Virus record (IMG/VR): IMGVR_UViG_3300047641_000075
Location: 1 to 20,241 of that record
From: a virus
Direction: 5' to 3' (one strand)
Length of the DNA: 20,241 nucleotides
Part shown: one piece after another, positions 2,238-16,625 of the stretch
Layout of the letters: the number at the start of each line of letters is the position of its first letter
How positions within the stretch are numbered: the stretch's first letter is position 1
Position numbers and translations under genes: made by a program
The notes under the pieces: model-generated
Told to the model about the DNA's origin: nothing
The model's input: the letters and a program-made list of their open reading frames with translations, nothing else
The model's database searches: none

Positions 2238-2266
2238 TTGACTCATACGAACATGCGTGCTATACT
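2238..2266 (+). promoter_or_regulatory. Strong sigma70-type promoter of the phage structural operon
   Basis: The -35 box TTGACT (2238-2243, five of six consensus bases) is separated by exactly 17 nt from the -10 box TATACT (2261-2266, five of six). The predicted start is near 2273. It is the best promoter in the window and drives transcription into the terminase genes through a leader of about 165 nt. Confidence 0.75.
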
Positions 2267-2272
2267 TGGTGT

Positions 2273-2418
2273 ATATCAATTCATTGGCACGGACGGTATT
2301 GCCAAATAACCCGTCACAGCAGCCGCGCTTGCGGAGTATTGAGATAATTACGAGTCGAAGGCGACGGAGCTGTCGGCACACCCACGTGACTGTAGGTGAG
2401 TGCCGGCATTATTTTTTT
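2273..2418 (+). promoter_or_regulatory. Structured leader RNA before the packaging genes
   Basis: Starting from the predicted promoter, the transcript would fold several hairpins before any gene: TTGGCA/TGCCAA (2284-2289 with 2300-2305), CCGC-gctt-GCGG (2323-2334), GTCG-aagg-CGAC (2354-2365), then the terminator at 2372-2418. The CGAC at 2362-2365 could pair instead with GTCG at 2372-2375, the base of the terminator stem, giving a weak competing structure. If terminated, the product is a small RNA of roughly 145 nt. The layout resembles the lambda pR'-tR' leader or HK022 put RNA; there is no sequence homology claim. Confidence 0.5.
2372..2418 (+). terminator. Intrinsic terminator in the late leader
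   Basis: The left arm GTCGGCACACC (2372-2382) pairs with GGT (2395-2397) and GTGCCGGC (2400-2407), with a 2-nt bulge and one G-U pair. It is followed by ATTA and a run of seven T (2412-2418). The first gene starts only 22 nt beyond the T-run, so late transcription must read through it. Confidence 0.65.
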
Positions 2419-2439
2419 GTCTGCGGAAGGGTGAGGACG

Positions 2440-2772
2440 ATGGAAACCAAGAGAGTGCAGTCTTGGGACGAGCTTTATCAAATGGGCGTACATCCGAAGA
2501 TTGCGGCGCAGCAGCGCGGGTGTTCGATGCGAACCGCGTTTCGAGCAATGGCGGCTGCGCATAGGAAATCCGTGCAGATCAATGCTCTGAACGCCGCTGC
2601 GCGTTCCGTGCGAATCATGGAGATCTCGCGCGTTTGCGATCAGAGCAACTGGCCTCGCGAGTTTCGGGAAATGGCGGATCGAATCGCTCGAGAGGGACCG
2701 TCGCGAGTGCCGGATTCCGACAGGGATGCGGTGCTCAGGGGATTGCCGCGCGGATTCGTTGCCGGTCGGTAG
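2440..2772 (+). CDS. Small HTH protein, candidate terminase small subunit or phage regulator
   Basis: The 110-residue product begins at an ATG with GGAAGG 9 nt upstream. The frame stays open to 2257, but those codons overlap the promoter -10 box and the terminator and are not plausible coding sequence. Residues 11-38 (ELYQMGVHPKIAAQQRGCSM and following) look like a helix-turn-helix, and the rest is mostly helical and basic. It is the first gene of the late operon, directly before a helical protein and the large terminase, the normal place for the small terminase subunit, whose N-terminal HTH recognises the packaging site. An alternative is a transcriptional regulator of the operon. No specific family was recognised. 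Confidence 0.6.
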   Translation: METKRVQSWDELYQMGVHPKIAAQQRGCSMRTAFRAMAAAHRKSVQINALNAAARSVRIMEISRVCDQSNWPREFREMADRIAREGPSRVPDSDRDAVLRGLPRGFVAGR

Positions 2773-2811: not shown

Positions 2812-3108
2812 ATGACGATGACTGGAACAAAGCTCAGTGATTTTAGTGAAGAACCGAATACCGTCGACTTGGATGCCGAACGACAGCGAGAGCTGAAGAC
2901 TCTTAACAATGTCGAGAAAGAGGTCGAGAAGAGCCTTGCCCAGGGAGACTTGGCTGCTGCTCGGATCATGGTGCAAATTTCACAGAGCCGCCGAAAGCTG
3001 CTCGGATTGGACCGTAAGCCTGAAAAGGCCGATGGAAAGAACGGGGACAAGATGCTCGCCGAGGTGCGGGCGTTCTTTCGAAACGCGGATGGCGATGACG
3101 AGGATTAG
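2812..3108 (+). CDS. Small helical protein, possible terminase small-subunit component
   Basis: This 98-residue protein is predicted almost wholly helical: an acidic start, a charged helix over residues 22-45, a second over 46-63, then RRKLLGLDRKPEK and an acidic end (NADGDDED). The LLGLD-type tail after a helical core resembles the C-terminal part of some phage small terminase subunits. It lacks an N-terminal DNA-binding domain; the preceding gene supplies an HTH. Its end overlaps the start of the large terminase by 14 nt (ATG 3095) or 20 nt (ATG 3089), indicating translational coupling. The function is an inference from position and shape. Confidence 0.6.
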   Translation: MTMTGTKLSDFSEEPNTVDLDAERQRELKTLNNVEKEVEKSLAQGDLAAARIMVQISQSRRKLLGLDRKPEKADGKNGDKMLAEVRAFFRNADGDDED

Positions 3109-4387
3109 GGGGCTTGAGTTCGCCAAACTGGCATGGAACTGGGAGCCGCATTCGCCCGGCCAGCGCGATTGGATACTTTGCAACGCGCGGATCAAGGTGG
3201 CCGCATGTGGACGGCGATGGGGGAAAAGCGAGAGCACGGCAATCGACATAGCTCTGTATGCCGCTGAGCACAGCGGAACTACTCAGATCGTAGTTGCCCC
3301 GACGCACGACCAGACGACGATCATACTGGATGAAGTCCGGCGACGGCTGCATCAAGTGGTCGGCTCAGACTTTTGGCTGGAAGACAAGCGCTCGCCGTAT
3401 CCGCTGTTGCGCTTCGGCAGGGATGGGCCAAGAGCGTTGCCAACCACGGTGTTCGGGAGAACGGCGGGGCTCGACGGAAGAGGGCTGCGTGGGAGATCGG
3501 CACATCGGGTGATTGTGGACGAGGCCGCGTACGTGCCCGACCCCGTTATGGACAGTGTCATCACACCGCTCCTGGCAGACCGGGATGGCAAACTGATCTT
3601 GATATCGACGCCGGCTGGACGGAACCACTTTTGGCGGAGTTTTCTGCTTGGACGGGACAATGTCCAGTCGCGATGCCGGTCGTTTCAGTTTCCCAGCTCG
3701 GCCAATCCCTTTTTGTCTCGCGACTATTTGGCGCACGAGCAGGCTGTAAAGCCCGAAAGGACGTTTCGCGTGGAGTACCTTGCAGAGTTTGCCGACGCGG
3801 AAGGCACGGTGTTTCGGAATGTCAAGGAATGCTGTTCGGGCACATGGCAAGAGCCCTTTCCACAACATGTGTATGTTGGCGGCCTCGATCTTGCGCGACT
3901 GTCCGATTATTCCGTGCTCACTATCATTGACCGCCAAAACAACAGGGTGGTTCACCAGGAACGGTTTCAACGGATCTCGTGGCCACAACAGCGCGAACGT
4001 GTGCGGCTGGCCCTAAGGCGATACAACGGCGCAGAGGCTCTGGTGGAAGCCAACAGCGTTGGCGATCCCACGATAGACGACCTACGGCGCGAAGGCGCTC
4101 TTGTTCGCGGGTTCTCGACTACCGCGCAGACCAAGCGAGACCTTATCGACGCCTTGGCGGTGGCATTCGAGAACGGTGCAATCGCGCTTCCGGCCGAGGT
4201 GTACTGCAAGCCGATGATCGACGAGCTGCTCGAATATGCCTACGACCTTTCGCCCAGTGGCATGTTACGGTCGTCGGCGCCGGCAGGCGGGCATGACGAT
4301 ATCGTGATGTCCCTTGCGCTCGCATGGCATATGGCGCACAAGGTGACGCAACGGGCGGTGCGCACGGCGGGCCGCCGGTACACGTGA
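3095..4387 (+). CDS. terL: Terminase large subunit (packaging ATPase and nuclease)
   Basis: The 430-residue protein drives DNA translocation into the prohead and cuts the concatemer. The ATPase domain has a Walker A-like ACGRRWGKSES (37-47, K44), Walker B HRVIVDEA (D142, E143) and coupling motif ISTPAG (170-175). The RNase H-like nuclease domain shows GGLDLA (D265), LVEAN (E318) and GGHDD (D401, D402). All key motifs are intact. The longer open frame back to 2909 is rejected because it would run through the preceding gene; ATG at 3095, or 3089 six bases earlier, fits with a short overlap. SD is weak (GGATGG), consistent with coupling to the upstream gene. The C-terminus is basic. Confidence 0.95.
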   Translation: MTRIRGLEFAKLAWNWEPHSPGQRDWILCNARIKVAACGRRWGKSESTAIDIALYAAEHSGTTQIVVAPTHDQTTIILDEVRRRLHQVVGSDFWLEDKRSPYPLLRFGRDGPRALPTTVFGRTAGLDGRGLRGRSAHRVIVDEAAYVPDPVMDSVITPLLADRDGKLILISTPAGRNHFWRSFLLGRDNVQSRCRSFQFPSSANPFLSRDYLAHEQAVKPERTFRVEYLAEFADAEGTVFRNVKECCSGTWQEPFPQHVYVGGLDLARLSDYSVLTIIDRQNNRVVHQERFQRISWPQQRERVRLALRRYNGAEALVEANSVGDPTIDDLRREGALVRGFSTTAQTKRDLIDALAVAFENGAIALPAEVYCKPMIDELLEYAYDLSPSGMLRSSAPAGGHDDIVMSLALAWHMAHKVTQRAVRTAGRRYT

Positions 4388-4391
4388 CATA

Positions 4392-4410
4392 GGGGAGGAA
4401 ACCAATTTTG
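4392..4410 (+). promoter_or_regulatory. Strong SD that fixes a TTG start for the portal gene
   Basis: AGGGGAGGAA-type SD (4391-4400) lies 7 nt before TTG at 4408. No in-frame ATG occurs nearby, so the portal gene starts at TTG with an unusually long SD that may compensate for the weak start codon. Confidence 0.8.
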
Positions 4411-5823
4411 AATCCATTGATCAACACGTCGACCCCGTCTCCGGGAGCAGCGGTTGCAGCGTTGCTGGGGTTGGAGAGCTTTGCGTATTACCACGGTTAC
4501 CCTTACCCGGAGTTTGCCTTTGGGCCTCAGCAGTGGCCGCGAGACAACGGGCCGTTGCCAACTCCGTTGCCCTATGCGCGGATTCTGATTGACGAGGGTG
4601 CCGAGTTTCTGTTTCGGGGCGGCCCACCGAGGTTCACGGCACCTGGCTCGCAAGCCGCGCAGGCTATCATCGACCAAGTGATTCGAGACAACTCACTCGG
4701 CGCACGGTGGCTGTCGCTGGCGCGGTCGGCAGGAAACTGCGGCACGGTTGCCGCGAAGTTCGGCCTGTGGCGGGACGTCCATGGGGCTGAGCGCGTGAAG
4801 GTGTCGTTCTTGACCGCACCAGAGGAGTGCCGGGTATGGACCGATGCCCATGACTACACGCACATAACGATGGCGCGCGTTCAATATCCGTTCCGAGACC
4901 GTAAAACGAACACATGGTCGCTCTTCCGAGAGGAGTGGACAGATGACGAATGGGTTGAGTTTGAGCCGCTGTCCGTTTCGTCGGCTGGCATGCCATTGTC
5001 CTGGCGCGAGGAGCAAGACGATTGCGATCAGTGGCGCATCGCGAAAATCCGAGAGAACCCCTTTGGCGTGATCCCGATCACGTTGATTCGCAATCGACAG
5101 GTTGAGGGATCGCCGCTTGGCGTGGGCGATTGCTGGGGCGTGTTCCGAATCATGGACCGCGTTGCGCTGACGATGCACGGGCAGGATCGCTCCAATCAGC
5201 TTCACTCGGATCCCATTCGCGTGGTGAAGAACGCGGACCTCGAAAACCAGGGGCCGCTTTTGCCAGGAGAGGCGATCTCGGTGCGAAACAGCGACGGCAG
5301 CGGGGTTGCGGCAGATTTTGAGCTTGTAGAGCCGTCAGGCGCGGCCAGGCAGTATGTGCAGGCCTATGTGGAAAAGATGGAAGACCTGCTCTATCGCGCG
5401 GTAGGGATCTCGAAGGTGGACACCGCATCCATTGCCAATCGTGGGAACCTCACGCGGCTGGCGTTCCTAATGACCTACGCGCGCACCATTTCGACAACGG
5501 ATCGCAAGCGGCAGGCTTGGGGCCCGGACGGCCTTGGCATGTTTTTCGGGACGATGCTCTGCGGGCTGAACCGCGCCGGATATGCGGACGCACGCGGGGA
5601 CGTGGGCGACGCGGAAGTGATCGTGCAATGGCCGGACTACTTTGCGCCCACCGATGCCGACCGGAAATCGGTGACAGACAGAACGCTTTCGCAATTGCAG
5701 GCCGGGATGATCGCGCCGCACGCCGCAGCTCTTCGCTTGGCTGCGGCCGAGGGCGTTCCCGCTGCGGATATCGCACGGTTTGCAGACGAGGCAACGAAAT
5801 TTGGATCGCACAAGGAGAAATGA
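4408..5823 (+). CDS. Portal protein (SPP1 gp6-like)
   Basis: This 471-residue protein should form the dodecameric ring at the capsid vertex through which DNA enters and leaves. Length, position directly after the large terminase, and sequence style match the SPP1-type portal family. Supporting segments are a cysteine-containing beta region at about 110-160, ENPFGVIPITLIRN (216-229), a helical stem region RIMDRVALTMHGQDRSNQL (247-265), the later VEKMEDLLYRAVGISK, and a helical C-terminal crown with ADRKSVTDRTLSQLQAG. The scaffold gene follows after 3 nt. Nothing suggests disruption. Confidence 0.88.
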   Translation: MNPLINTSTPSPGAAVAALLGLESFAYYHGYPYPEFAFGPQQWPRDNGPLPTPLPYARILIDEGAEFLFRGGPPRFTAPGSQAAQAIIDQVIRDNSLGARWLSLARSAGNCGTVAAKFGLWRDVHGAERVKVSFLTAPEECRVWTDAHDYTHITMARVQYPFRDRKTNTWSLFREEWTDDEWVEFEPLSVSSAGMPLSWREEQDDCDQWRIAKIRENPFGVIPITLIRNRQVEGSPLGVGDCWGVFRIMDRVALTMHGQDRSNQLHSDPIRVVKNADLENQGPLLPGEAISVRNSDGSGVAADFELVEPSGAARQYVQAYVEKMEDLLYRAVGISKVDTASIANRGNLTRLAFLMTYARTISTTDRKRQAWGPDGLGMFFGTMLCGLNRAGYADARGDVGDAEVIVQWPDYFAPTDADRKSVTDRTLSQLQAGMIAPHAAALRLAAAEGVPAADIARFADEATKFGSHKEK

Positions 5824-6384: not shown

Positions 6385-6411
6385 GACGCTAATTTGGTTA
6401 GCGTCTTTTTT
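6385..6411 (+). terminator. Intrinsic terminator directly upstream of the coat gene
   Basis: A perfect 8-bp stem GACGCTAA (6385-6392) / TTAGCGTC (6398-6405) with a TTTGG loop is followed by six T (6406-6411). The coat gene's ATG is 19 nt further on, leaving no room for a promoter after the terminator. It probably attenuates late transcription or, alternatively, protects or defines the 5' end of the coat mRNA. Confidence 0.75.
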
Positions 6412-9576: not shown

Positions 9577-9609
9577 GGGCCGTTGCCCCTCACGGGCCCT
9601 TTCGTTTTT
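9577..9609 (+). terminator. Intrinsic terminator before the tail genes
   Basis: GGGCCGT (9577-9583) pairs with ACGGGCCC (9592-9599) with one bulged G, loop TGCCCCTC, followed by TTTCGTTTTT. It begins 5 nt after the preceding stop codon and ends 63 nt before the tail-tube start. Confidence 0.7.
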
Positions 9610-15510: not shown

Positions 15511-15555
15511 CGATGAGGTAAAAAACGTGAGGCTGCGAACGTATGTACCTCATCG
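15511..15555 (+). promoter_or_regulatory. 10-bp inverted repeat in the antitoxin leader
   Basis: CGATGAGGTA (15511-15520) is exactly complementary to TACCTCATCG (15546-15555), with a 25-nt loop that itself contains two ACGT blocks. It lies between the promoter region and the antitoxin start and could be an operator or a leader hairpin that limits translation. Confidence 0.55.
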
Positions 15556-15573
15556 AAGCGGACCGTGGCCACA

Positions 15574-16101
15574 ATGTACAGAGAAGACAAAGCGACACAA
15601 CTTGCGGGATATCTCATCACGAGGGCAGGAGGAAAATGTAATTACACTGTCCTTCTCAAGATGCTGTACGCGTGTGACCGTGCCATGATCGAGACGTGGG
15701 GAATGCCGATCACCTATGATAAATGGGTCTCGATGCATTGCGGCCCGGTTCTTAGCGCCACATATGACCTAATAAAGAGGGCAAACCGAGGGCGAAGCGT
15801 GTGGAGGGACTATATCCGAACCGAGGGCTACAACGTCACGCTGATAACAAATCCAGGTGAGGAAATGCTGTCGGATGCAGAGATTGAAATTGCCAACAAG
15901 GTCTTTTCGGTCATGGGAGGGATGCAGTATGGAGAGGCGATCGAGTTGACGCACCAGAAGTTTCCTGAGTGGACTGACCCAGGCGAGACAAGCGTGCCTA
16001 TTTCTGTTTCGGATATGCTTGGAGCGATGGAGCAAGCGGGCGACGAATATGTCAACGAAGTAGAATCGCACTTTCAAGCTAATGAGTTGTTAGCACCTTA
16101 G
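15574..16101 (+). CDS. Panacea-domain (DUF4065) antitoxin
   Basis: The 175-residue protein matches the Panacea/DUF4065 pattern over its whole length: YREDKATQLAGYLITRAGGK, then LLKMLYACDRAMIETWGMPIT (27-47), the family hallmark HCGPVLSATYDLIK (55-68), LSDAEIEIANKVF (99-111) and ELTHQKFPEW (124-133). Panacea proteins such as PanA and SocA are antitoxins or adaptors that neutralise unrelated toxins. I start at ATG 15574, which places the YREDKATQ segment at the N-terminus as in relatives; GTG at 15565 would add three residues. The next gene begins 6 nt after the stop codon and encodes a MazF/PemK-like protein. The DNA is more A+T-rich than the flanking tail genes, suggesting acquisition as a unit. 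Confidence 0.88.
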   Translation: MYREDKATQLAGYLITRAGGKCNYTVLLKMLYACDRAMIETWGMPITYDKWVSMHCGPVLSATYDLIKRANRGRSVWRDYIRTEGYNVTLITNPGEEMLSDAEIEIANKVFSVMGGMQYGEAIELTHQKFPEWTDPGETSVPISVSDMLGAMEQAGDEYVNEVESHFQANELLAP

Positions 16102-16107
16102 GCGTTT

Positions 16108-16512
16108 GTGTTTATTCAGGCTGGAAGCGTTTTTCTTGCACGGCTGCCGTATGGCTCACCCAAGGACCATTGCTGTATATGCCTTACGGACAATGGCGGC
16201 ATGAGCGACTCTGTATTCGTCGTGCCAATAATGTCACCTACGCCAAAATGTGACCGCACGACTGTTCTCGCGACTGCTGATATTCCAGACTTTCTCAAGT
16301 ACGACTCCTATGTGTCATACACGCATTTAGTTGAGATGGACGTCACTACCCTTTCTACAAAAATCGTCCGTCATTTTTCACCCGTTTCCAAAGAAGTGCT
16401 CAAGCGTGTAATTGATGGCGCTTTTTCCTCACCTTTGACGGCAAGGGGCTATAGACAGTGGTTCAAGGATCGACTTGAAGAAAACGCCAAGGATGACGCC
16501 GGAGCGAAATAG
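16108..16512 (+). CDS. Putative MazF/PemK-like toxin of the Panacea cassette
   Basis: This 134-residue protein starts at GTG, 6 nt after the antitoxin stop codon. The pattern is that of the PemK/MazF SH3-like barrel: GSVFLARLPYGSPKDHCCICL (6-26), VFVVPIMSP (36-44), TTVLATADIP (51-60), then DSYVSYTHLVEMD (66-78) and SKEVLKRVIDGAFSSPL (94-110). MazF-fold toxins are mostly mRNA endonucleases. The typical MazF arginine in the first loop (GxxR-P) is not clear, so activity may differ or another target may apply. A weak AGG SD and the tiny gap imply translational coupling to the antitoxin, which would keep toxin output low. Fold assignment is from pattern only. Confidence 0.6.
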   Translation: MFIQAGSVFLARLPYGSPKDHCCICLTDNGGMSDSVFVVPIMSPTPKCDRTTVLATADIPDFLKYDSYVSYTHLVEMDVTTLSTKIVRHFSPVSKEVLKRVIDGAFSSPLTARGYRQWFKDRLEENAKDDAGAK

Positions 16513-16548: not shown

Positions 16549-16625
16549 AGCCGACCTGCTCTGGAGCTTCCATCTGAAGCGTCCGGGGCTTTTTTGTTGC
16601 CCAATCCCGCACAGCGGGCCTTTTT
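16549..16625 (+). terminator. Tandem terminator-like hairpins after the toxin gene
   Basis: First hairpin: GGAGCTTC (16563-16570) with GAAGC-G-TCC (16576-16584), enclosed by AGCC/GGCT (16549-16552 with 16587-16590) and followed by T6 (16590-16595). Second: CCCGC-aca-GCGGG (16606-16618), then CC and T5 (16621-16625). They would insulate the cassette but also stand 44 nt before the next tail gene's start. Confidence 0.5.

Follow-up and report, generated by a model that had tools for sequence, protein, structure and literature searches.

A putative SOS-controlled, terminator-gated late promoter in a prophage of a probable Armatimonadota host

The prophage left end and the start of its packaging operon

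The window analysed in this study, by which we mean the whole stretch of 20,241 bases, is a complete IMG/VR record that opens with two leftward host genes (1–1656), encoding a cation-efflux transporter and a BlaI-type repressor, and an identical overlapping contig carries it further leftward into ordinary bacterial genes. From position 2440 onward the phage genes run rightward, with two small genes followed by those for the large terminase, the portal, the scaffold and a P22-like coat protein. The features on which the following account depends are these:

2238–2266, plus strand: late promoter, TTGACT-17-(TG)TATACT, which no other sigma70-type site of the window surpasses, with a predicted start at about 2273
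2248–2260, plus strand: predicted SOS (LexA) box, CGAACATGCGTGC, which takes up the spacer between -35 and -10 and lies directly before TATACT
2273–2370, plus strand: untranslated leader, without an ATG and with weak 5' hairpins
2371–2418, plus strand: intrinsic terminator, consisting of a hairpin (2371–2408) and a U tract to 2418
2440–2772, plus strand: gene that opens the packaging operon, encoding 110 aa, a small terminase by position only
2812–3108, plus strand: second small gene, 98 aa, with a weak match to phrog_645
3095–4387, plus strand: terminase large subunit (PF17289, PF03237, phrog_2)
4408–5823, plus strand: portal protein (phrog_64), the query used for finding relatives
6385–6411, plus strand: internal terminator (z = -3.6), whose hairpin ends 26 nt before the major capsid gene

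The near-consensus promoter that had been proposed from the sequence in an earlier note (TTGACT, 17 nt, TATACT) holds up well. It carries an extended -10 (TG) and ranks first among seven promoter-like sites in the window, and its score is matched by only 0.8% of shuffles (p = 0.008), which were made from the 200 nt preceding the terminator and from the 783-nt intergenic region. It thus supplies the strong sigma70 promoter expected of a lambda-type late operon; inspection by eye near the late start revealed no clear second -10-like element.

The terminator is equally clear. Its hairpin folds at -19.1 kcal/mol (z = -2.9 versus shuffles) and is followed directly by TTATTTTTTT, and the run of seven T residues ends at 2418, ahead of the first packaging gene, as the same note had stated. 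The first ATG after it is at 2440, which leaves a gap of 31 nt between hairpin and start codon; another promoter cannot fit there, and read-through is therefore the only way in which the first gene can be transcribed. Its product has no Pfam or PHROG match. We observe that its reading frame is open from 2257, through both leader and terminator, but the residues encoded upstream of 2440 look non-coding and the open frame at 2257–2439 is therefore probably due to chance.

The leader itself is a different matter. Three small hairpins had been claimed at its 5' end, yet the fold of 2273–2367 (-21.9 kcal/mol) is indistinguishable from the shuffle mean (-21.8 kcal/mol; z = -0.03), and that of the whole leader reaches z = -0.80. 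Since the 5' hairpins are no better than those of shuffled sequences, "structured" is the wrong word for the leader. A covariance-model search of Rfam with the leader region of the window returned no family match, and inspection of 2273–2418 found no ATG with which a leader peptide might begin.

The flanking transporter is 56–64% identical to proteins from one Armatimonadota group, and L009, a close capsid relative of the window, comes from an Armatimonadota genome; on the strength of this one flanking gene and the origin of L009, the host of the prophage is probably a member of the Armatimonadota. Host synteny around the prophage is not conserved, and an empty attachment site could not be defined from it. 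Of 291 Armatimonadota genomes, 129 encode a homologue of the large terminase (3095–4387) with about 30–46% identity, mostly in exactly one copy and with other genes downstream, which looks like a widespread and perhaps vertically inherited cluster, either gene-transfer-agent-like or a prophage. We rejected these as relatives of the window, because they belong to different clusters without a related portal or capsid.

Recurrence of the promoter-terminator layout in related phages

Alignments of the portal protein gathered a family of metagenomic phages, among which no isolated phage with a related portal was found. A strict scan for a promoter followed by a terminator, covering both strands of 31 loci (621 kb), gave seven pairs, six of which, the window's included, lie on the coding strand 2.0–2.65 kb upstream of the portal gene, which places them ahead of the first packaging gene. 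The pair in L122 can be added to these, as it failed nothing but the T-run rule of the strict scan. The same layout thus precedes the packaging genes in L122, L123, L124, L125, L127 and L171, with near-consensus promoters (9 to 12 of 12 matches), leaders of about 70–125 nt and terminators of -22 to -36 kcal/mol; L125 and L127, being closely related, make a single case. L123 and L171 derive from near-complete relatives of 42 kb and 52 kb. Gaps between hairpin and start codon in the relatives are 23–57 nt with no promoter inside, and the gene behind the L123 terminator matches the small terminase (phrog_2538, 1.5e-8). The same scanner recovered lambda pR'-tR' as a positive control.

We note that this layout is common and not universal: it is present in 7 of about 23 distinct loci having sequence upstream of the packaging genes, and most lack it in its strict form. 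Across seven less related loci promoters precede terminators far more often than expected (Fisher p = 1e-7), with two of the seven negative when taken singly, and the same comparison on the reverse strands gave no excess. Terminators also recur further into the late genes, 26–32 nt ahead of the capsid gene in the window (6385–6405), in L114 (2897–2914) and in L118 (3176–3202); L126, L170 and L192 have them shortly before the scaffold gene or another late gene.

What recurs is the arrangement and not the leader sequence, which is conserved, hairpin included, among L123, L125 and L127, but not across the family; a wider scan with the L123/L125 terminator hairpin returned only the three contigs already known. 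The 5' hairpins, in which the earlier note had suggested looking for covariation among related phages, were not conserved in the relatives compared, and for a covariation check the close packaging-gene relatives of the window amounted to one identical overlapping contig only. The folds of the leaders ahead of the terminator are likewise unremarkable or modest in L122 (z = +0.8), L124 (z = -1.8) and L171 (z = -1.3). L009, the closest capsid relative, was discarded as a comparator, having another terminase and no such leader.

Ten related phage records, among them several short fragments, yielded no protein of the lambda-Q (PF03589) or Q21 (PF06530) family in a search that covered these two of the three Q families, the third being PF06323 (PMC7171158). 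The window stops short of the right end of its prophage and so shows none of the regulators encoded there. Nor does any common gene adjoin the late promoter: its neighbour encodes a small protein rich in cysteine in L123, L125 and L171, and an HTH protein in L122. The former proteins, with paired cysteines resembling a zinc ribbon, are encoded directly before the promoter (L123, 3638–3901; L125, about 587–847; L171, 2639–2848). They have no convincing family match, and as candidates for an antiterminator we set them aside as unproven.

Two further observations concern individual relatives. In L171 the late terminator is separated from the first late genes by a tRNA-Met gene (2987–3062). L117 and L005 proved to be one 46 kb contig, whose portal and scaffold genes stand at one end while the capsid gene occupies the opposite one. 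A genome that is circular or circularly permuted would look like this if the cut fell within the capsid gene.

An SOS-type box in the promoter spacer

The spacer of the late promoter reads CATAC-GAACATGCGTGC in the window and AATAC-GAACATATGTTC in L124. An Armatimonadota recA promoter, TTGCTG-CAATC-GAACATTTGTGC-TATAAT, holds the same box in the same register as the window, namely the -35, five bases, GAACATNNGTGC and the -10. Furthermore, CGAACATNYGTTG lies just behind the -10 of four Armatimonadota lexA genes, from four genomes of the probable host's group. Upstream of lexA in L197, L201, L222 and L223, just after the -10, we also observed tandem boxes, CGAACATNYGTTGCC-GAACRYYTGT. The pattern CGAACATNNGTNCTATANT was matched six times in the 291 Armatimonadota genomes, compared with no match for a reversed-pattern control, and the matches precede recA, a gene for a Y-family DNA polymerase and a DUF5131 gene. 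We consider it probable from these matches that CGAACATNNGTKC beside the -10 is the SOS box of Armatimonadota; a search of a limited literature collection turned up no paper on an Armatimonadota SOS box.

A count over 602 kb of related phage sequence gave two occurrences of the box, against 0.6 expected, one in the late promoter of the window and the other in that of L124; the other relatives are without it. By a matrix built from the lexA boxes alone the window site is 7th of 40,456 positions, with p of about 0.006 for the promoter core, so that the case for an SOS box rests on position as well as on sequence. As in a promoter of an SOS regulon, a LexA box of the host group, if the host phylum is correctly assigned, overlaps the promoter. 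The site at 2248–2260, which had escaped the earlier note, is thus likely an SOS operator. An SOS box inside the promoter also implies that the promoter is probably off in a lysogen, unlike lambda pR', which is not known to be LexA-repressed. The RNA of about 145 nt that had been envisaged as the uninduced product is accordingly less likely than an SOS-induced one, given the predicted LexA box within the promoter.

Two possible locks on the packaging genes

These features lead us to propose, as a reading that we hold to be probable though well short of certain, that this prophage, whose host is probably one of the Armatimonadota, has an SOS-controlled, terminator-gated late promoter, which would be closed by two locks. 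Host LexA, bound to the SOS box within the strong sigma70-type promoter, would keep the promoter off in the lysogen, and DNA damage would release LexA and allow the late promoter to fire. Transcripts from about 2273 would then meet the intrinsic terminator ending at 2418, so that the packaging genes would still need read-through. This second lock might be opened by a phage-encoded processive antitermination factor, and the same factor might also carry polymerase past the terminator ahead of the capsid gene. The sequence itself shows the elements, their spacing, their recurrence in relatives and the likeness of the box to SOS promoters of the host phylum; LexA binding, the function of the terminator and the existence of such a factor are what we infer to complete the scheme. 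The earlier proposal that the late genes are switched on by antitermination therefore fares unevenly: a promoter followed by a blocking terminator does lie before the packaging genes, here and in six relatives, but the ten related records contained no lambda-Q or Q21 protein that might do the switching.

The main rival is a terminator that is leaky without any factor. Release of LexA would then be the sole switch, the terminator would serve to lower background, and a fixed fraction of read-through would suffice, with copy number after replication doing the rest. Such an SOS promoter with a leaky attenuator fits the recA-like register of the box, the failure to find a Q21 or lambda-Q gene in the ten records of relatives and the lack of significant structure in the leader. 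We nevertheless think it unlikely, as relatives that have no SOS box keep the terminator, often in a stronger form (-28 to -36 kcal/mol), and a further strong terminator stands just ahead of the capsid gene, whose product is the one most needed. The promoter and terminator might instead bound an independent small-RNA gene, giving an SOS-induced RNA of about 145 nt, with the late genes expressed from elsewhere. The unit is indeed complete from promoter to terminator, and in L123, L125 and L127 the leader is conserved, hairpin included; yet in the window, L122 and L124 the first gene follows the terminator too closely to admit another promoter, the leader sequence is not conserved family-wide, and it shows neither an Rfam match nor a stable fold, so that this reading seems quite improbable to us.

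Two other explanations take the terminator or its hairpin out of late control altogether. A terminator at the left end of a prophage might act as an insulator that blocks read-in from the host, as T1 does in Tn916, with the upstream promoter incidental; host genes do lie to the left of the window prophage, and T1/canT provides a precedent (PMC11658703). In L122, L123, L125 and L171, however, the promoter-terminator unit lies inside the phage genome behind other phage genes, and in every case the promoter comes before and never after the terminator, which makes an insulator very improbable. A DNA-level packaging site (pac) beside the small terminase gene, with a promoter-like sequence arising by chance, would account for the inverted repeats and for their position adjoining the terminase genes. 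It is hardly credible when promoters in relatives reach 12/12 and 11/12 of the consensus and the T runs stand on the late-gene side of the hairpins, as in terminators.

To return to the two-lock reading, the best-known terminator-gated late promoters are those of lambdoid phages infecting gamma-proteobacteria, and lambda pR'-tR' is the nearest architecture, likewise having a strong promoter, a short leader and an intrinsic terminator before the late genes. It differs in that the first genes here are for packaging and not for lysis, and the window cannot be filed under lambda Q because the defining protein was not found (no PF03589 or PF06530 member in the ten records of relatives). HK022 put is similar in that a leader directly follows the promoter and precedes terminators, whereas the 5' hairpins of the window are neither significant (z = -0.03) nor conserved, and for this reason it was not filed under put either. 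In regulatory logic the nearest system is the late promoter P3 of phage GIL01, where LexA acts with gp7 as repressor and firing awaits activation by gp6 (PMC6182141). As read here, the window would share with P3 a late promoter repressed by host LexA and a second, phage-controlled step, but this second step appears to be a terminator and not an activator site, there is one box in place of the tandem boxes of GIL01, and the host phylum differs. In Tn916 the terminator T1, before the operon of the element, is overcome by processive antitermination through canT (PMC11658703). There too a terminator stands before the first operon gene near the end of the element, but the promoter of Tn916 is at the far end of the element and that of the window is beside the terminator, and no canT-like RNA was identified.

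That uncultured phages so distant, and with no match to lambda-Q or Q21, share a terminator-gated layout suggests that the strategy is more widespread than the lambdoid examples or was invented more than once, and it offers a concrete place in which to seek a new antitermination factor. The SOS box would be a first testable link from DNA damage to prophage late genes in Armatimonadota. More tentatively, and on a proposition that we would not yet count upon, this phage family known only from metagenomes, some of it in Armatimonadota, may gate its packaging operon by a new processive antitermination outside the Q, N and put types, which in the window would come on top of a late promoter directly repressed by the SOS system; if so, one region would read both the damage to the host and the progress of the phage.

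Further terminators within the gene cluster had also been listed in the earlier note. That at 6385–6411 is well supported, as given above, and that at 9577–9609 is at chance level (z = -0.7). The one at 16549–16625 is real (z = -2.1), but it follows a SocA/Panacea pair and may belong to a separate cassette. The pair, a SocA/Panacea antitoxin-like gene and a small partner gene, occupies 15565–16512 with tandem terminators behind it, and the second-best SOS-type box of the window, CGAACGTATGTACC (15536–15549), lies 16 nt ahead of the SocA/Panacea gene. Pair and box together possibly form a cassette of their own within the late operon.
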